From: an uncultured Caulobacterales bacterium
GTDB taxonomy: Bacteria; Pseudomonadota; Alphaproteobacteria; Caulobacterales; Maricaulaceae
Direction of reading: 5' to 3'
NCBI GenBank assembly: GCA_937929915.1
Contig: CALFUN010000003.1
Location: 115,882 to 179,881 of the forward strand
Length of the DNA stretch: 64,000 nt
Shown: in pieces, positions 5,237-61,162 of the stretch
Position numbering within the stretch: the stretch's first letter is position 1
Layout of the letters: every line of letters begins with the position of its first letter
Notes under the pieces: model-generated
Told to the model about the DNA's origin: nothing
Database searches by the model: none
The model's input: only the letters and a program-made list of their open reading frames with translations
Position numbers and translations under genes: made by a program

Positions 5237-6790
5237 ATGTTTAAACGTTTGGCCCTTGCCACCACTATTAGCCTCTGCACACTTGGCGCTGCACATGCCC
5301 AGCCCCCTGCCCAGACACAAGATTCAGGTGCCCCGGTTACAGATAATCAAAACTCTATCACCGCAGGTGAATGGGGCGGTGTTTTGCTGGAAGATTTTCA
5401 TCTGATTGAAAAGCTAGCCCGCTTTGACCGCGAGCGCATTCCAGAGCGCGTTGTTCATGCGCGCGGCACAGGCGCACATGGCAAATTCACTGTGACGAAT
5501 AATGATATTGCCAAATATAGCTCGGCGTCTTTATTTTCAGATATTGGCGAAGAGACACCTGTTTTCGTAAGATTTTCCACAGTGGTACACCCGAAAGGTT
5601 CTCCAGAAGGTTTACGCGACCCACGCGGTTTTGCGATCAAGTTTTATACAGATGAAGGAAATTGGGATTTAGTTGGGAATAATCTACCTGTCTTTTTCAT
5701 TCGTGATGCCATCAAGTTTCCAGACATGGTGCATTCTCTCAAACCCTCCCCTGTCACCAATCAACAAGACCCCAATCGGTTCTTTGACTTTTTTAGCCAT
5801 ATCCCAGAATCCACACATATGTTGACTCAAGTTTACACAGATTTGGGTACCCCTGAAGGCTATCAATATATGGATGGCAATTCTGTCCACGCACTGCGCC
5901 TTATCAATGCAAAAGGCGAGAGCGTATTTGCAAAATTCCGGTGGACAACAGATCAAGGCGTCAGAACTCTGAGCGCGAAAGAGGCCGAAGCGCGTCCCTT
6001 TAACTATGCCACTCAGTCTCTCTATGATGATTTAAACGCAGGTAAAACTGCGAGTTGGACATTAAAAGCGATTATTTTGAAACCAGAAAATATTGAAAAA
6101 CTCGATTTCAACCCGTTTGACGCTACGAAAGATTGGCCCGATGCAGGTCAGCATTTCGAGACAATCGAAATTGGCAAGATGGAATTAAATAAAGTCCCAG
6201 ATAATTTCTTTGCCTCTACAGAACAATCCGCGTTTTCGCCAGGTGTTCTTGTGCCAGGTATTCAGCCTTCACCAGACCGCTTATTGCAAGGCCGCTTATT
6301 TTCTTATGCAGATACACAGCGTTATCGTGTTGGAACAAATTATCAAGCCTTGCCTGTCAATGCGCCGCGTGTGAGCGTTAAAAATGGCTCTCAAGACGGA
6401 ACACTAAACGCATCTGGCCGCACAGGTGATGTCAATTACCAACCAAGCCGCCAACCTGCCGCAAATGGTGCATATGCAGACAGCTCAAATGCGGTCTCTG
6501 GCACATATGATGTTTCAGGCATAGCCCAGCGCGCGGCCATCAGCAAAAAAGCGCCGTTCAAGCAAGCGGGGCAATTCTACAATCAACTTAGCCGCGCCCA
6601 GCAACGTGCTTTAATTAGTAATCTGGCAGGTGATCTTGGTAAGGTCAAAAGCGATGAGGTGCGCGAAATCATGGTCACGCATTTCTATATGGCAGATGAA
6701 AATTATGGCCGCGAGCTAGCTCGTAAAGTCAATGTTAAAATGACCAAGGTTGAGGCACGCGCAGCCGCGTTTAAACCCGCAGTCAATTAA
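5237..6790 (+). CDS. Catalase (clade-3-like, with signal peptide)
   Basis: FDRERIPERVVHARGTGAHGKF, FVRFSTV, RDPRGFAIKFYTDEGNWDLVGNN, RLFSYADTQRYRVGTNYQALPVN. Confidence 0.96.
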   Translation: MFKRLALATTISLCTLGAAHAQPPAQTQDSGAPVTDNQNSITAGEWGGVLLEDFHLIEKLARFDRERIPERVVHARGTGAHGKFTVTNNDIAKYSSASLFSDIGEETPVFVRFSTVVHPKGSPEGLRDPRGFAIKFYTDEGNWDLVGNNLPVFFIRDAIKFPDMVHSLKPSPVTNQQDPNRFFDFFSHIPESTHMLTQVYTDLGTPEGYQYMDGNSVHALRLINAKGESVFAKFRWTTDQGVRTLSAKEAEARPFNYATQSLYDDLNAGKTASWTLKAIILKPENIEKLDFNPFDATKDWPDAGQHFETIEIGKMELNKVPDNFFASTEQSAFSPGVLVPGIQPSPDRLLQGRLFSYADTQRYRVGTNYQALPVNAPRVSVKNGSQDGTLNASGRTGDVNYQPSRQPAANGAYADSSNAVSGTYDVSGIAQRAAISKKAPFKQAGQFYNQLSRAQQRALISNLAGDLGKVKSDEVREIMVTHFYMADENYGRELARKVNVKMTKVEARAAAFKPAVN

Positions 6791-6810: not shown

Positions 6811-6893
6811 GAAAGGCAGCCCACCCCTTAACTGTCTTTCCATTTGGTAGGACGCAAATCTTCCTCCCCCTTATATTTGCGTCCTACCTTTTT
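6811..6893 (+). ncRNA. Catalase 3' UTR double hairpin with C-rich (anti-SD-like) loops; second hairpin is an intrinsic terminator
   Basis: Hairpin 1: GAAAGGCAG(6811-6819)/CTGTCTTTC(6832-6840), loop CCCACCCCTTAA. Hairpin 2: GGTAGGACGCAAAT(6846-6859)/ATTTGCGTCCTACC(6875-6888), loop CTTCCTCCCCCTTAT, followed by TTTTT. Confidence 0.65.
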
Positions 6894-17018: not shown

Positions 17019-19346
17019 ATGGGATCATATCAGTCAACATTTACAATTAAACGTCTTTGGATATTCCTTGCGCTAAGTGTCGTCATTATGTTTTCAACGC
17101 TTCTTTGGATGGGGCGCGAGATATATCAAGTTGCCCCGCCCATACCCAATGCTGTGGTAACATCGTCAGGCGATTCATTATACACCAAAGACAATATCCA
17201 AAACGGTCAAAATATCTGGCAATCTACAGGCGGGATGCAACAAGGTTCCATATGGGGACATGGCAGCTATGTCGCACCTGATTGGAGTGCTGATTGGCTC
17301 CAACGCGAATCCTTAATTTTATTAGATGAAATACGCCGCAATATGCGTCTTCCTAATCTGGAAAAAGAGATAGCAGAACAAGCACACCTCGCCGCGCTGC
17401 GCAGTGAAATGCGTAGCAATACATATAATCCAGACACGGGCATCATCACCGTAAGCCTTGGCAGAGCTTTAGCGATTCGCGGCGTACAATCCCATTATGA
17501 TAAATTATTCAGAGCCCAAGGTGAGGAATATTTAAAGTTAAGACAAGACTACGCCATGCCCCTCCATGCTGTTTTAACACCAGAAGAAACGCATGATTTA
17601 TCAGCCTTTATCTTTTGGACATCGTGGAGTGCTTCAACACAGCGCCCCGGCAAGAACATTACCTATACAAGTAATTGGCCGCACGAGCCTCTGGTTGGAA
17701 ATACACCAACACCCTCCACATTACTCTGGAGCATTGTATCTTTTATTCTATTGCTCGCGGGCATTGGTGCGATTGTTTGGTATTATGCCAAGCAATATGA
17801 TATTTGGCGTGACGATATAGAACCTGAAAACGGCCTTGCGAAAACTGACTTTATTGACACGGCGACGATCACCCCATCAATGAAAGCTGTTGCAAAATAT
17901 TTTTGGCTCATTACGGCCCTATTTTGTGCGCAAGTTTTGTTAGGTATATTGACAGCACATTACGCCGTTGAAGGCCAAGGTCTTTATGGATTACCATTTG
18001 TAGATTATTTGCCATATTCCGTATCCCGAACTTGACACACGCAACTTGCCGTATATTGGATTGCGACCACATGGCTTGCGACAGGCCTATATATCGCACC
18101 ACTTATTTCGGGCAAAGATCCAAAATTCCAAGTTTTCGGAGTGAACTTTATTTTTGGCAGCCTGTTTCTCATCGTTATAGGCTCATTCATCGGAGAATGG
18201 AGCGCCATTCATAGATTCATAGAAAATATGCAGGTGAATTTCTGGTTCGGACATCAAGGCTATGAATATGTTGACCTTGGGCGTTTCTGGCAAATCTTTC
18301 TGCTTATTGGACTGCTTCTATGGGTTATTTTGGTGCTGCGGGCTTTATATCCTGCCCTGACGGAAAAAGTGCTGGGAACATCTATGTTTTCGCCCAATTC
18401 TCGTAAACATTTATTGCTGCTATTGGCTATAGCTACAATCTGTATTGGGTTATTATATGGTGCAGGATTAATGTGGGGGCAACACACCCATATTTCCGTC
18501 ATGAATTATTGGAGATGGTGGATTGTCCATCTTTGGGTTGAAGGCGTCTTTGAAGTTTTCGCTACAACATTGTTATCTGTGCTGTTTATTCATATGGGGT
18601 TGCTGCGTGTGCGCACGGCAATTACAATGATCCTATTTGCCACAATTATCTTTTTAATTGGCGGAGTTCTGGGAACCTTTCACCATTTATATTTTAGCGG
18701 AACGCCCACATCCGTTATTGCAATCGGCGCAACTTTTTCAGCTCTAGAGGTCGTCCCGCTCGTAGTTATTGGTTTCGAAGTCTATAATCACTCAAAAATC
18801 GAGCAACAAACGGAGTGGGAGAAAAACTATCACTGGCCCTTTATGTTTTTCGGAGCCGTGATGTTTTGGAACCTTGTCGGCGCAGGCATATTTGGCTTTA
18901 TGGTAAATCCGCCTATTGCGCTTTATTATATGCAAGGCATGAACCTAACAGCTAACCACGCCCATACATCTTTATTCGGTGTTTATGGCATGTTAGCGAT
19001 TGGCCTTATCCTTTATTGTATGAGAGGGCTGACGGATTTGGAAAATTGGAATAATAAATTACTCAAAATAAGTTTTTGGACGTTAAATATTGGCCTTGGC
19101 ATGATGGCCTTTTTATCCTTATTGCCCCAAGGAATTTTGCAAACAATCGCTAGCGTTAATCACAGCTATGCCTATGCGCGCTCGGCTGAATTTATCCATT
19201 CACCAATTATGGAGGGATTAGTTTGGATGCGCGTTCCGGGTGATGTTGTATTTAGTGTCGGCGTCTTTAGTTTTGCAGCTTTTGTGTATCAAGCTTTTCG
19301 CAAGAGCGCGGCAAAATCTAAGGCACTCCGTAAGGTAGACGTTTAA
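17019..19346 (+). pseudogene. norB: Quinol-type nitric oxide reductase NorB (qNOR) with a single in-frame UGA at 18033-18035
   Basis: 17019-18035 encodes the N-terminal part ending ...LPYSVSRT*, and the same frame continues HTQLAVYWIATTWLATGLYIAPLISGKDPKF... through the ORF at 18141-19346. 2328 nt = 776 codons, one internal TGA where the family has Trp (SRT-W-HTQLA). Confidence 0.9.
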
Positions 19347-32841: not shown

Positions 32842-34795
32842 ATACGGACAATTTTCTTTATGTCTGGCTTTCGCGGCTGCGCTTTTAACCGTTATCAGCA
32901 CATTTCGTAAGGACGCCCTGATCGCATCTGCAGGGGCCAGCGCCGCGTTAAAGGCGCAATTTATCGCTTTACTCTGCGCATTTATCTGTCTGGTCATGGC
33001 CTTTATAATATCCGACTTCTCCGTCACACTTGTCGCGTCGAATAGCCATTCTGAAAAACCACTTTTATATAAAATCGCAGGCACATGGGGCAATCATGAA
33101 GGCTCTATGTTGTTATGGATGCTATTACTAAGTGCCTATTGTGCAAGTTTTGCATATTTTAAAGTCTCAAAGGTTGAGACATCAAAGATTGAATATAGGG
33201 TCTTGGGATTAATTTGCATTGCAATTATTGTCTTTATCCTCGCAGCCTCCAATCCATTTTTGCGCATGGATACCGTACCTATCGAAGGTCGTGGTTTAAA
33301 TCCGCTATTGCAAGATTGGGGTTTAGCGATCCACCCGCCGATTTTATATGCTGGATATGTTGGGTTTGCCGTGCCTTATGCCATGGCTATAGGCACATTA
33401 TTCAGCGGCGCTGCAGATCGTCAATGGGCGCGCCAAATCTTGCCTTGGATTATGACGCCACTGGCTTTTCTAACACTCGGCGTAGGTCTGGGCTCTTGGT
33501 GGGCTTACCGCGAGCTAGGTTGGGGCGGATTTTGGTTTTGGGATCCCGTGGAAAATGCCAGCCTACTGCCATGGCTCTTTGGCGCGGCCATGGCGCATGG
33601 CGCTTTCATTCTCAAACGCACAGGTGCTTTGGGACAATCAACACTATTACTTGCTATTCTAACCTTTAGCCTGTCAATTCTAGGCACATTCTTAGTCCGG
33701 TCTGGTGTATTAACCTCCGTGCATTCTTTTGCGGTCGATCCGAAAAGAGGCCTGCTGATTTTCATATTCCTAATGATTGTTTTAGGCGGCGGATTAGGTG
33801 TGTTTTGGACAAAGCGTTCCGCCTCTGGGAAACCGATAACTTGGCCTCTAACCAGCCGCCTTGGATTTATGGCGGCAGGCATTGGCTTGCTGCTAACGAT
33901 TGCAGGCACAGTTTTGCTGGGCACGCTTTACCCTCTTGCCATCGACGCATTGGGCGCAGAGCCTATTACAGTCGGTGCGCCATATTTTAACGCGACAGCC
34001 CGCCCGCTCGGATGGCTAATGGTCGGAATTATGGTGCTGGCCCCTTTTGCCTTATGGACAACGCCTTTGACGTTAACAGGGATAATTCAAGACCATAAAG
34101 GCGGGCTCATCAGTGCTTTGGTTGGCGTGATAGCAGCCACGCTCACGCTGCAACATTTTCAAACTGATATATGGCAAGCCTTGCTATTTGGAGTATCTGT
34201 CTTCTTTTGCGGATTAGTTGTAACCTTCGCGATCTCCCATGCGCCAAAAACGCTCTCTGGCATGTCTATGATTTTTGCTCATGGCGGGATTGCCCTCGCC
34301 GCGCTTGGGATGACAGGCGCGGCCTTTTTCTCCTCTGAAACAATCGTGAGCGTAAAGCCCGGCGATCAATTCGAGACAGCGCAAAAAACTTTAGTCTTTG
34401 GCGGTGTGGAACGCGGCAAAGGTGCCAATTATTTTTACGACCGCGCAACTGTCAAAATTTTAGACGCGGCAGGTCATATCAAAAATGAACTCACGCCTGA
34501 ACGCAGATGGTATCCAGCGGGAAATATGACAACGAGCGAAGCCATGATTGACCGCACAGTCATTCGTGATTTTTATGTCACCTTAGGCGATTTACGCACG
34601 CCCGGTGCCGATGCCCCTGATTGGGCCTTACGGGTTTATGATAGGCCTTTCATATCATGGATATGGCTTGGTTGCATTTTAACATTTTTAGGCAGCGGCT
34701 TTAGCGCCATACATCATTTCCGTCGCCGCCGCGTAGCTTCATCTATGCCCGCCAAAGCCGCGCCAACTCACCTTATTTTAGGGCCAGCCGAATGA
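32831..34795 (+). CDS. ccmF: Cytochrome c maturation heme lyase CcmF
   Basis: WGNHEGSMLLWMLLLS, AIHPPILYAGYVGFAVPYA, WWAYRELGWGGFWFWDPVENASLLPWL. Confidence 0.97.
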   Translation: MWAEYGQFSLCLAFAAALLTVISTFRKDALIASAGASAALKAQFIALLCAFICLVMAFIISDFSVTLVASNSHSEKPLLYKIAGTWGNHEGSMLLWMLLLSAYCASFAYFKVSKVETSKIEYRVLGLICIAIIVFILAASNPFLRMDTVPIEGRGLNPLLQDWGLAIHPPILYAGYVGFAVPYAMAIGTLFSGAADRQWARQILPWIMTPLAFLTLGVGLGSWWAYRELGWGGFWFWDPVENASLLPWLFGAAMAHGAFILKRTGALGQSTLLLAILTFSLSILGTFLVRSGVLTSVHSFAVDPKRGLLIFIFLMIVLGGGLGVFWTKRSASGKPITWPLTSRLGFMAAGIGLLLTIAGTVLLGTLYPLAIDALGAEPITVGAPYFNATARPLGWLMVGIMVLAPFALWTTPLTLTGIIQDHKGGLISALVGVIAATLTLQHFQTDIWQALLFGVSVFFCGLVVTFAISHAPKTLSGMSMIFAHGGIALAALGMTGAAFFSSETIVSVKPGDQFETAQKTLVFGGVERGKGANYFYDRATVKILDAAGHIKNELTPERRWYPAGNMTTSEAMIDRTVIRDFYVTLGDLRTPGADAPDWALRVYDRPFISWIWLGCILTFLGSGFSAIHHFRRRRVASSMPAKAAPTHLILGPAE

Positions 34796-45517: not shown

Positions 45518-46396
45518 CTACAGCTCGTCTATTTTCTCATTTTTTTGTATGCTTTGACGATAGCGGCCGGGTGTATAGCCATAATATTGTTTAAACGTGG
45601 TGGTCAAATGTGACTGCGAAGAAAACCCGCAATCATAAGCAATATGAGATATGGGCGTATTTGTTTCCGCTAGCATCCTTTTGGCCCTCGCAAGACGACG
45701 ATTTTTTATATAATTATGCGGTGATAGGTGATATTTTGCTTTAAAGACACGTAAAAAATGCCAAGCGGATAGTCCCGCAATTTTTGCTAATTGGTTCAGC
45801 GTCAATCCATCATCAAGATTATCTTCTATCCACCTGACAGCCTTATGCATCCCAATATGCGCGTTTGGCCTGTTGGGATTAAGGCCTTGTATCGTTCTTT
45901 GGTCAATAATATCTAAGGTGATCATCAGCAAGGAGGCTGCCGTTTCCATTAGGTTCTCTGACATATTATCGCGAACCAAAGCCTCTTCATGTATACGAAG
46001 AATCGTCTCAAAAACCAAAATATCACGAAAGACCTGAATACCTATTCTATTCCAATTCGGTAACATTGCCCTATCGGTCTGTCCTTGGAAGTTAACGGCG
46101 ATAACTTTGCATGTTCTATCAAGCTCCATATGTGCTGTGCAGCCCCCGGGGGATGTAAATAAAGCTCCCCGAGACAAAGACGCTCTTATTTTGAAATCTT
46201 CCGTCCAGAGACGAGACTCGGCTGACCCAGATATAACAGCATAAAGCGTGAAACTACTCTCACAGGATAAATCATGGCATCCTGCGTCGAAATCCACCCG
46301 CTTTATTGTGATCTCATAAGGCTGAATTTGATCTTCTAAAATTTGTCCAGAACGAATCTGAGCTATGCTTTTCGCGGTCTGAAGAAGTTGGCTCAT
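45518..46396 (-). CDS. AraC-family transcriptional regulator
   Basis: LTLNQLAKIAGLSAWHFLRVFKAKYHLSPHNYI...CGFSSQSHLTTTFKQYYGYTPGRYRQ. Confidence 0.94.
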   Translation of the reverse strand: MSQLLQTAKSIAQIRSGQILEDQIQPYEITIKRVDFDAGCHDLSCESSFTLYAVISGSAESRLWTEDFKIRASLSRGALFTSPGGCTAHMELDRTCKVIAVNFQGQTDRAMLPNWNRIGIQVFRDILVFETILRIHEEALVRDNMSENLMETAASLLMITLDIIDQRTIQGLNPNRPNAHIGMHKAVRWIEDNLDDGLTLNQLAKIAGLSAWHFLRVFKAKYHLSPHNYIKNRRLARAKRMLAETNTPISHIAYDCGFSSQSHLTTTFKQYYGYTPGRYRQSIQKNEKIDEL

Positions 46397-46544
46397 GGCG
46401 GGCTTTCGGATTAAAGTGATCTTATCAACACTCTATCCATGTCAAAATAAGATGAATCTGTCTTAGCCCTTCGTGCGGCAAATTATGGATTATTGCGGAA
46501 ACTCTATACCAATTACATATGGCCGAAATTTGAGAAATTTATAT

Positions 46545-46690
46545 AAAAAAAGAGGTAGGTGGCGAGGGGACGCGCCACCTACCTTCTGAAACGGTTAGCC
46601 AAGGGGGAGGACTGAACCGTGACGGTTCGTCAAGGGGGGAAAGACGGAACCGTATATAATGTCAAGTAGCGAGGGGAGAGCTAGCTGACT
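46545..46690 (-). ncRNA. Candidate four-hairpin sRNA with C-rich anti-Shine-Dalgarno-like loops and intrinsic terminator
   Basis: Minus strand 5' to 3': GTCAGCTAGC-TCTCCCCTC-GCTACTTGAC; ACGGTTCCGTC-TTTCCCCCCTT-GACGAACCGT; ACGGTTCAG-TCCTCCCCCTTGG-CTAACCGT; AGGTAGGTGGCG-CGTCCCCT-CGCCACCTACCT, then CTTTTTTTATAT. Confidence 0.75.
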
Positions 46691-47120
46691 ATCAAATGCG
46701 ATTATCTAAAAATTATGCCAACCGCAGCAGGATGTCGAAATTATCCGAAACCCTTAAACAAGACTGTAGATTTCTTATGGGGACAAATCTTATGTCTGTT
46801 TATATATTAGTCTTAACAAGAGTTTTCACTTGTAGATTTCAGATTCCAGATTTTTTCAGATTACGAGTCATCTCACCTTAAGAAATATATATTTAAAATA
46901 GATATACTGCTCATAAACGCAACATATTACACCTTTAAATTTATTTTTCGTCAACTGCTTATCAATATTCCGATATTCTCTTAAATTGATTTAGATAGGT
47001 AAAGCTCATAGCTCACCATTAAGCCTTATCTTGAAACTAAAATTATCTGAAAGATAAATTGAGTCTCTAAGTCTTATATTGCGTCCATAGCATTTCGCTA
47101 ATTAACGCATTGAGGTCAAA

Positions 47121-47912
47121 ATGAAAAAAATTATAAAAATCGTCGCTGCAACAAGCTTATTAGCATCAGCCTACCCTAGCTTCGCACAATCAGCGAAAAA
47201 CAAACCCGCAAAACCTGCATATGCAGATCCCGCGCAGCCAATGCTCTCGGAAACACCTATGACATTAACGAAATCGGACACAGCCCTTGTAGTTATTGAT
47301 CCGCAAATTGATTTCCTCAGCCCAAAAGGTGTCTCATGGGGGGCCGTCGGGGAAAGCGTCACAGAAAATAATGTTGTTCCGCATCTCGAAGATCTTTTCT
47401 CAGCCGCGAATAAACGCGGTATGTTAACATTTGTCTCGCCCCATTATTATTACCCGCACGATCATGAATGGGAGTTTGAAGGGAAGCTGGAAAAACTCAT
47501 GCATGACATTAAAATGTTCGACCGCGCAGGACAGCTAGATGTAAAAGGGTTTAAAGGCTCTGGCGCAGACTGGATGCCGCAATATAAGCCATATATTAAC
47601 TCCAAAAACACAATCGTATCTGCGCCTCATAAAATCTACGGCCCAGAACAAAATGATCTCGTTTTGCAAATGCGCAAACGCGGGATTAATAAAGTGATTT
47701 TAGCAGGCATGTCCTCCAATCTGTGTGTGCAGGCACATATGCATGAACTCATAGAGCAAGGTTTCGAAGTCATGGTTGTACGCGATGCAACCGCAGGCGC
47801 AATTATCCCGGAAGGTGATGGATATTTGGCCGCGCTAGTCAATTTCCGCTTCATGGCCAGCGAAGTTGTCTACACAAGCGACGCCGTCAAGCGAATCAAA
47901 AAAGCCCGTTAA
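47121..47912 (+). CDS. Isochorismatase-like cysteine hydrolase, exported (copy 2)
   Basis: Close paralog of 25505-26347: ALVVIDPQIDFLSPKGVSWGAVGESVT, VILAGMSSNLCVQAHMHELIEQGFEVMVVRDATAGAI. Confidence 0.92.
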   Translation: MKKIIKIVAATSLLASAYPSFAQSAKNKPAKPAYADPAQPMLSETPMTLTKSDTALVVIDPQIDFLSPKGVSWGAVGESVTENNVVPHLEDLFSAANKRGMLTFVSPHYYYPHDHEWEFEGKLEKLMHDIKMFDRAGQLDVKGFKGSGADWMPQYKPYINSKNTIVSAPHKIYGPEQNDLVLQMRKRGINKVILAGMSSNLCVQAHMHELIEQGFEVMVVRDATAGAIIPEGDGYLAALVNFRFMASEVVYTSDAVKRIKKAR

Positions 47913-59491: not shown

Positions 59492-59896
59492 TTATTCACT
59501 TGAAAGCAAGCTTTGCATTCCTAACCCGTACAGTATTCCTACCTTAACGGCGGCTAAATCTTCACCACTTGCGCTTGGCAACTCAAACTTTCTTCTGCCT
59601 ACTTTGAAGCCGCTTAGCCGAGACCGGCTAAGATTAAGTATCATATCACATTTAGCCCAACAGGGGTAATTGTCATCTTCATTTGGGTGGTAATTCCTTG
59701 AAAGTTGAACAATAAATGGCTTCGGGTATCTTGGTGATGTCGTGCTTATTGGCACGAAAGCAACTATTTCACCCCTATACTGCAATCGTGGAGACACAAC
59801 CATGACAGGACGAACCTTATTCATTTCAGGTTCCCTAAAGTCACTTAAATTGCAGACAAGTATCTGTCCCGCTCTCGGGTTAAAATTAATAGGCAT
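59492..59896 (-). CDS. PemK/MazF-family toxin-like protein (orphan)
   Basis: MPINFNPRAGQILVCNLSDFREPEMNKVRPVMVVSPRLQYRGEIVAFVPISTT; internal Met at 59896 preferred over 59950. Confidence 0.85.
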   Translation of the reverse strand: MPINFNPRAGQILVCNLSDFREPEMNKVRPVMVVSPRLQYRGEIVAFVPISTTSPRYPKPFIVQLSRNYHPNEDDNYPCWAKCDMILNLSRSRLSGFKVGRRKFELPSASGEDLAAVKVGILYGLGMQSLLSSE

Positions 59897-60113
59897 GAAA
59901 ATACAATCTTTGAGGGGTGTACAGAATCCAGTGATTCTGTTAATCAGCATATAAGGACACCCCTAACGGGATGTCCTCGGAGTTTTAATTTGTTTATCAA
60001 ATAAGCTTCGGTTTAAGCCAATAAAAGCCCGCACCGAAGCAAGCGTTCAAGTGTAGTAGCTGCATCGTTTTTACTCCTTTCCATCTAGCCGTCAGCGCGG
60101 CTTGGTTATTTGA

Positions 60114-60589: not shown

Positions 60590-61162
60590 ATGTGGGTTAC
60601 ACAAGTATATAATACCCATAAAAAAGACCTCGAAGCAGAAATCGTTAAGTCCCCGCATCATGGATCAGGTGATTTTGATTTTAAGGCTTTAAAAGCTATG
60701 AGCCCTGTCGTCGGTATCATATCCTCTGGTGATGAGAGCGCGAATAAGGAACATATTCATCCGCGGGCCACACTCTTAGCCGCCCCTGGAAAAGTCATGC
60801 GCCTTGATACCGGTATTATTCTCTCTACAGAACTCGCGGCCTTTTTTACGAAAAGAGATTACTCAAATACGCGCGAGACATTGAATAAATATTTCAAAGC
60901 GAGAAAAACGCAAAACTTTACGGGCGCCGAAGTTGCCAAGTTATTTGCGGGTAAACTTGATTCAGGCGATCCAGAACCAAGCTTCTACGCTTTTGAGAGG
61001 ACGAATTTTGGTATTATTCACGTTCGCACAGACGGGGAGCGCGTACTTGTTTTTACCCACTCTGGGAAAAAAGGGGTGAACGAAGCTTATAGCTTTACTG
61101 TCAAACTTAACGCCAATGGGGACCGCGTTATTAAGTTTAAAGATAAAACCACTCATAGATAA
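60590..61162 (+). pseudogene. N-terminally truncated MBL-fold (ComEC-like) hydrolase fragment
   Basis: EIVKSPHHGSGDFDFKALKAMSPVVGIISSGDESANKEHIHPRATLL; no HxHxDH region upstream, stop directly before ATG. Confidence 0.7.

Follow-up and report, generated by a model that had tools for sequence, protein, structure and literature searches.

The question raised by this locus is whether four consecutive hairpins with C-rich loops, read from the minus strand at 46689-46543 of a 64,000-nt stretch of DNA (the whole stretch analyzed, here referred to as the window), form a regulatory RNA and, if so, of what kind. The window belongs to the genome of an uncultured Caulobacterales bacterium (2.49 Mb in 39 contigs, 92% complete), and the genus was sampled through 18 species. 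We read the element as encoding a stand-alone, terminator-ended small RNA (sRNA) that would repress mRNAs with G-rich ribosome-binding sites (RBSs) through redundant loops, and we give this reading a probability of roughly 70%. A preliminary description of the same DNA had claimed four successive minus-strand stem-loops, a C-rich motif in every loop, and a perfect 12-bp terminator stem followed by a U-tail; the predicted fold bears out all three.

46661-46689, minus strand: hairpin 1 (H1), loop UCUCCCCUC
46622-46653, minus strand: hairpin 2 (H2), loop UUUCCCCCCUU, outer stem ACGGTT/AACCGT as in H3
46591-46620, minus strand: hairpin 3 (H3), loop UCCUCCCCCUUGG with CCUCC inside, also written UCCUCCCCCUU(GG)
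46553-46584, minus strand: hairpin 4 (H4), the intrinsic terminator, perfect 12-bp stem AGGTAGGTGGCG/CGCCACCTACCT, loop CGUCCCCU
46543-46552, minus strand: U-tail CUUUUUUUAU (DNA CTTTTTTTAT), the predicted 3' end of the RNA

The H4 stem (12 bp, 8 of them G-C pairs) runs into CTTTTTTTAT, the combination of G+C-rich hairpin and U-run by which intrinsic terminators are recognized. No terminator-like hairpin in the 64 kb scored higher, and no other in that scan had a C-rich loop. C-runs of at least 4 nt occur four times in the element (4, 6, 5, and 4 C), each inside a hairpin loop, and they are unpaired with probability 1.0 except for the last C of H4. The RNAfold check that the preliminary description had proposed recovered the four hairpins with a minimum free energy of -55.6 kcal/mol for a 166-nt stretch, against a shuffled mean of -29.0 +/- 3.2 (z = -8.4); no shuffle in 200 folded as well. 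Among 2000 dinucleotide shuffles, which served as the null for loop counts, CCCC-containing loops numbered zero in 1363, one in 580, two in 55, three in 2, and four in none. Across 1704 tiles covering both strands of the unselected window, at least two CCCC loops were found at non-coding places only in the element and in the 3' untranslated region (UTR) of a catalase gene. The earlier claim that the stems differ holds in part, given that H2 and H3 have the same outer stem, ACGGTT/AACCGT, suggestive of a duplicated module. The arms of these two hairpins can also pair with each other as GAACCGT/ACGGTTC, and a longer fold with upstream sequence adopts this alternative.

Upstream and downstream of the element, the following features frame its possible expression.

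45518-46396, minus strand: AraC-family regulator gene, downstream of the terminator, ~147 nt beyond the U-tail
46701-46706, minus strand: -10-like GATAAT without a suitable -35
46712-46738, minus strand: weak candidate promoter TCGACA-15 nt-CATAAT, 10 of 12 consensus bases, short spacer
47121-47912, plus strand: isochorismatase-family hydrolase gene, a divergent neighbor with an N-terminal signal-like sequence

The placement between an AraC gene and an isochorismatase-like hydrolase gene had been described before, as had the -10-like element at 46701-46706 without a convincing -35, and we agree on both. To these we add the candidate at 46738-46712, which may act as a promoter; matches like it are common, and the search upstream of the element found no convincing promoter. 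For the isochorismatase protein, the best matches on plasmids come from alphaproteobacteria.

The AraC gene follows the element on the same strand, and a strong terminator separates it from the promoter region. On this arrangement the element could be a cis-acting leader or attenuator whose terminator decides transcription of AraC ~150 nt downstream, and the alternative H2/H3 hairpin of the longer fold would suit such a switch. We consider this unlikely: no anti-terminator can be seen that would open the 12-bp stem, a promoter-like TTGACA-15 nt-TAAGAT belonging to the AraC gene itself starts at 46445, and a leader would leave the C-rich tips on all four hairpins unexplained. Furthermore, the other C-loop RNAs described below are 3' UTRs or lie between unrelated genes, and none was seen upstream of an AraC gene. 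The AraC gene itself has no match at E <= 1e-30 in 60 relatives, and a sample of 385 genomes from the class gave partial matches only. It was dropped as a syntenic anchor, being absent from the relatives and having three unrelated partial matches in GTDB genomes. Because it is absent from the relatives, they offer no orthologous site for comparison, and the stretch around the element looks species-specific.

Searches by sequence and by covariance model placed the element on its own. BLAST against the 60 relatives, plasmids, and phages returned no homologue, the best matches in relatives being short chance or coding matches. A covariance model built from the single sequence of the element (R1) and run against 137 family and 18 genus genomes found no homologue beyond one weak match, the only other one at E <= 1 in the 137 family genomes (G002, C1:296506-296595; 14.9 bits, E = 0.9). 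This match begins exactly at the end of a phasin gene (296089-296508) whose 3' UTR bears the C-loop terminator UCCCCCUUUU. The Rfam search that had been suggested was run and gave nothing at gathering threshold: no family was matched by the element, and nothing was found in the window or in 20 C-loop loci. The only Rfam match of the element at E <= 1 was between H2-H3 and 6C RNA (RF01066; 25.8 bits, E = 0.65, against a gathering score of 47).

RNAs of the same design occur elsewhere in the genome. The genus was searched with a pattern of two C-runs followed by a T-run, matches being subsequently folded, and a broader, looser pattern was used for the source genome. The latter matched 17 distinct places, of which 4 are predicted to form hairpins with C-rich loops plus a terminator and 13 are not. 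One of the four is the window element; the other three, with a counterpart in a sister species, are as follows.

6811-6888 of the window, plus strand: second C-loop RNA of the window, a catalase 3' UTR with two hairpins, loops CCCACCCCUUAA and CUUCCUCCCCCUUAU, then U5
Contig C32 of the source genome (G000), ~34100-34540 (C32:34188 and 34473; L091 1903-2052 and 2192-2340): two tandem four-hairpin C-loop units, unit A among them, between an asparaginase-like ORF and uvrB
Contig C76 of a sister species (G001; L079 1591-1700 and 1975-2075): tandem C-loop pair homologous to the C32 units

The catalase gene (5237-6790; PF00199, 529 bits) lies directly upstream of the RNA at 6811-6888. The two C32 units can be aligned as copies of one another, and among the C-loop loci of this genome common ancestry is supported for this pair only; the stems of the window element are unlike those of its siblings. 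Loop 2 of unit A contains an exact CCUCCUCCC, the motif of the cuckoo/alpha-r14 RNAs. Elsewhere in the window (60950-61150, minus strand), three C-run hairpins without a terminator lie antisense to the coding sequence 60590-61162 and are probably a by-product of coding.

The tandem units of C32 and C76 allow stems and loops to be compared between species. They have the same terminator arm, GCAGGATTG...CAATCCTGC, and GCAGGATTG was found in no other of the 60 relatives. Across the four terminators, 44 of 44 stem cells pair (100%), with two pairs changed on both sides, and pairing falls to 23-48% when the partner is slid. The covariation score, from four sequences only, was reached by 18 of 500 shuffles; it supports the stems but is short of conclusive. 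The corresponding loops are CCCCCCUUA, UGCCCC, CUCCUCCC, and GUCCCCC. All four units also have a common upstream block (CTCACA..GTTTTAT..TGTGA..TTTAAGGT, spotted by eye; the G000 copies match it imperfectly), which suggests that the units possess a regulated promoter of their own.

A second comparison came from the phasin-like genes (Pfam PF05597, E = 2e-5, slightly below the cut-off), for which orthologues at E <= 1e-20 were collected from 14 sister genomes (L127-L140). Their 3' UTRs vary in stem sequence and place CCCC within a predicted hairpin loop in 9 of 14 and a C-rich loop in 12 of 14, the other two having pyrimidine-only loops. Such loops were present in 0 of 13 paralogous loci adjoining phasin genes, a weak control in which the downstream stretches enter another gene. 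Loops of the (CU)n and CCCC types occur in the phasin 3' UTRs, and some species have a hairpin with UGUCCCCUUU within a larger stem. More C-loop 3' UTRs follow katG (G013 and G004, the identity read from sequence, not from a family search), an Hsp20 gene (G016), and a response-regulator gene (G001). In 288 stretches downstream of ORFs, among them many loci picked for C-runs, a CCCC loop was found 17 times and a GGGG loop 4 times. Counts of the TCCCCT/C-run plus T-run pattern were set aside as main evidence because enrichment was weak in the genus (102 versus 66 in the reversed control); outside the genus there was none (133 versus 133).

Among comparable relatives, stems change while C-rich loops are mostly retained. 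The preliminary description had expected drifting stems around kept loops, and this is what the C32/C76 units and phasin 3' UTRs display; for the element, no homologue was found in 60 relatives by BLAST or in 137 family genomes by the single-sequence model. Loop conservation holds for the relatives in design and not for the four-hairpin locus itself. A separate conserved RNA, downstream of a LysR gene in one locus (L090), was seen in at least 8 sister genomes (L057, L058, L090) and has no Rfam match. Its terminator, CCCCGATTG..GCGAAGACTTT..GGCCCCTGC (also written GGCCCCUGC..GCAG.GGGCC), holds the last C-run in the stem; the RNA also has a GUCCUCCCCU loop, CUCUCCCCGAUUG, and a C-rich loop separate from that stem.

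These recurrences bear on another account of the element, in which it is no more than a strong terminator, the C-runs of the adjoining hairpins are due to chance, and there is no regulatory role. The failure to find a sequence homologue and the unproven promoter would both be expected of such a structure. We nevertheless hold it to be very improbable, given that four CCCC loops arose in 0 of 2000 shuffles, that three more C-loop RNAs exist in the same genome, and that 12 of 14 sister phasin 3' UTRs carry a C-rich loop.

If the element is a regulatory RNA, the known systems nearest to it are the cuckoo/alpha-r14 RNAs (NfeR1, SmelA075 and SmelA099 of Sinorhizobium, and RSs0680a/CcsR of Rhodobacter), which have 2 to 4 hairpins, C-rich anti-RBS loops, divergent stems, and several copies per genome, and for which covariance models are of little use because the stems diverge (PMC3927594). 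SmelA099 of Sinorhizobium has already been described as a four-hairpin anti-Shine-Dalgarno (anti-SD) RNA (PMC3927594), so that four hairpins of this kind are not in themselves new. The element resembles these RNAs in its four C-rich-loop hairpins, with stems divergent from those of its siblings (the H2/H3 outer stem excepted), and in its several copies, with four loci of such design in its own genome. Some members also lie in 3' UTRs; CcsR1-4 derive from the 3' UTR of the ccaF1 mRNA (PMC8625941). It differs in that its core is UCCCC and best fits GGGG-type sites, its terminator hairpin itself has a C-rich loop, and its 3' UTR relatives belong to catalase, katG, Hsp20, and phasin genes. Unlike Rhodobacter CcsR, it has no DUF1127/ccaF1-type ORF upstream on the minus strand, its neighbor being the divergent isochorismatase gene. 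Membership among the CuckooRNA, CcsR, or alpha-r14 RNAs, which the preliminary description had proposed as one possibility beside a distinct class, is not supported, since the defining CCUCCUCCC appears in 0 of 4 loops (one loop has CCUCC), Rfam gives no match at threshold, and a DUF1127 gene is absent upstream.

Within the alpha-r14 group, NfeR1 silences ntrB through three equivalent and redundant anti-SD loops that pair at its translation start, and it is Hfq independent (PMC10746234). In Xanthomonas, sX13 has three stable stems with C-rich (4C/5C) loops and represses mRNAs that carry a 4G motif close to the start codon (PMC3771888). The element would likewise set C-rich loops against G-rich sites, a resemblance of working principle for which homology is not claimed, whereas sX13 is gammaproteobacterial and has three loops to the element's four. 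The actinobacterial 6C RNA (RF01066) is similar in its consecutive hairpins with C-runs in the loops but has two hairpins and GC-rich stems, so that the likeness lies mainly in the C-runs; membership was rejected at 25.8 bits, far under the gathering score. Finally, the alpha-R8 sRNAs (MmgR and Caulobacter SisA-D) have an anti-SD-like C-rich core, UUUCCUCCCU (PMC12559287). They are alphaproteobacterial, C-rich in their core, and present in several copies in some genomes, but they have a single core 10-mer, placed after a weak hairpin. The element lacks the 10-mer and adjoins AraC and isochorismatase genes with no adjacent FGase gene, and alpha-R8 membership was rejected. On this comparison, the element is best read as a putative anti-RBS multi-loop sRNA in the style of cuckoo/alpha-r14/sX13 by working principle.

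In Caulobacter, the G/A-rich loop of CrfA sequesters the C-rich SisA-D (PMC12559287), and the mirror image of this arrangement, an RNA sponge whose C-rich loops bind G-rich sRNAs or 3' UTR fragments and free the targets of other regulators, would also employ such loops. The case of CrfA and SisA-D shows that alphaproteobacteria have sRNA pairs of the C-rich/G-rich type (PMC12559287); for the element, no G-rich partner RNA was identified, and we rate a sponge as improbable.

Computed pairing points to mRNA start sites. The element loops pair with GGGG-type sites (AAGGGGAG, AGGGGGAG) at -9.8 to -15.6 kcal/mol and more poorly with the canonical AAGGAGGU (-4.6 to -8.7 kcal/mol), and this preference indicates antisense pairing with G-rich RBSs. 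The anti-SD idea of the preliminary description is well supported, by anatomy and recurrence, as to C-rich loops that would act as antisense to RBSs, and is amended as to the site, GGGG-type sites being the better fit than AAGGAGGU. The best-fitting start site in the window is that of norB (AGAGGGGGAG), with loop 3 at -17.8 kcal/mol (-20.5 with flanks), followed by that of a TonB-dependent receptor; as targets out of ~50 genes, the two are only a suggestion. The norB-like gene (17019-19346, plus strand; PF22085 and COX1) is split into two ORFs by a single in-frame TGA at codon 339, which may be a sequencing error, a pseudogene mutation, or recoding.

The mechanism we infer for the element, from its promoter and transcription through mRNA pairing and targets to any chaperone and stress regulation, would run as follows. 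An independent small RNA of ~150 nt would be made, with its 3' end at its own terminator, and its four short hairpins would present C-rich loops with a UCCCC core. By base pairing with G-rich sequence (AGGGGGAG, AAGGGGA) in or close to the RBS of a target mRNA, each loop could block ribosome entry, and several equivalent loops would provide redundancy or let one RNA regulate several messages. With it, the genome would have at least four C-loop RNAs, part of a genus-wide class also found in stress-gene 3' UTRs.

RNAs that titrate proteins, too, typically repeat the same loop motif on several hairpins. Like CsrB/RsmZ RNAs, the element might use its C-rich loops to sequester a C-run-binding protein, with no mRNA pairing, and stems that drift while loops persist would fit this. 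We think it an unlikely explanation. CsrB-type loops mimic RBSs (GGA), whereas those of the element are the complement of an RBS; the characterized C-rich-loop RNAs, sX13 and NfeR1, work by base pairing; and we know of no C-specific titrated protein in this group.

If repression by mRNA pairing through redundant loops is correct, multi-loop anti-RBS RNAs would no longer be confined to the families known from Rhizobiales and Rhodobacter; those seen here would use another loop motif and would occupy 3' UTRs of oxidative-stress, heat-shock, and phasin genes. Features new in the element and its relatives would be loops built around UCCCC, a terminator hairpin with a C-rich tip of its own, and a link to stress-gene and phasin 3' UTRs in the genus. 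More tentatively, and at somewhat less than even odds, the genus may have a distributed C-loop layer in which stand-alone arrays of up to four hairpins, some of them in tandem behind a common upstream block, together with catalase, catalase-peroxidase, Hsp20, and phasin 3' UTRs, aim UCCCC-type tips at GGGG-type RBSs, not AAGGAGG, so that stress-gene expression would release RNAs that lower translation of a common set of G-rich-RBS mRNAs. Because stems diverge beyond recognition within one genus, BLAST and covariance models overlook such RNAs; they evade annotation, yet a plain search for C-loop hairpins before U-runs recovers them. Apart from these RNAs, the window encodes a PemK/MazF-like toxin-family protein (PF02452) at 59492-59950 on the minus strand.
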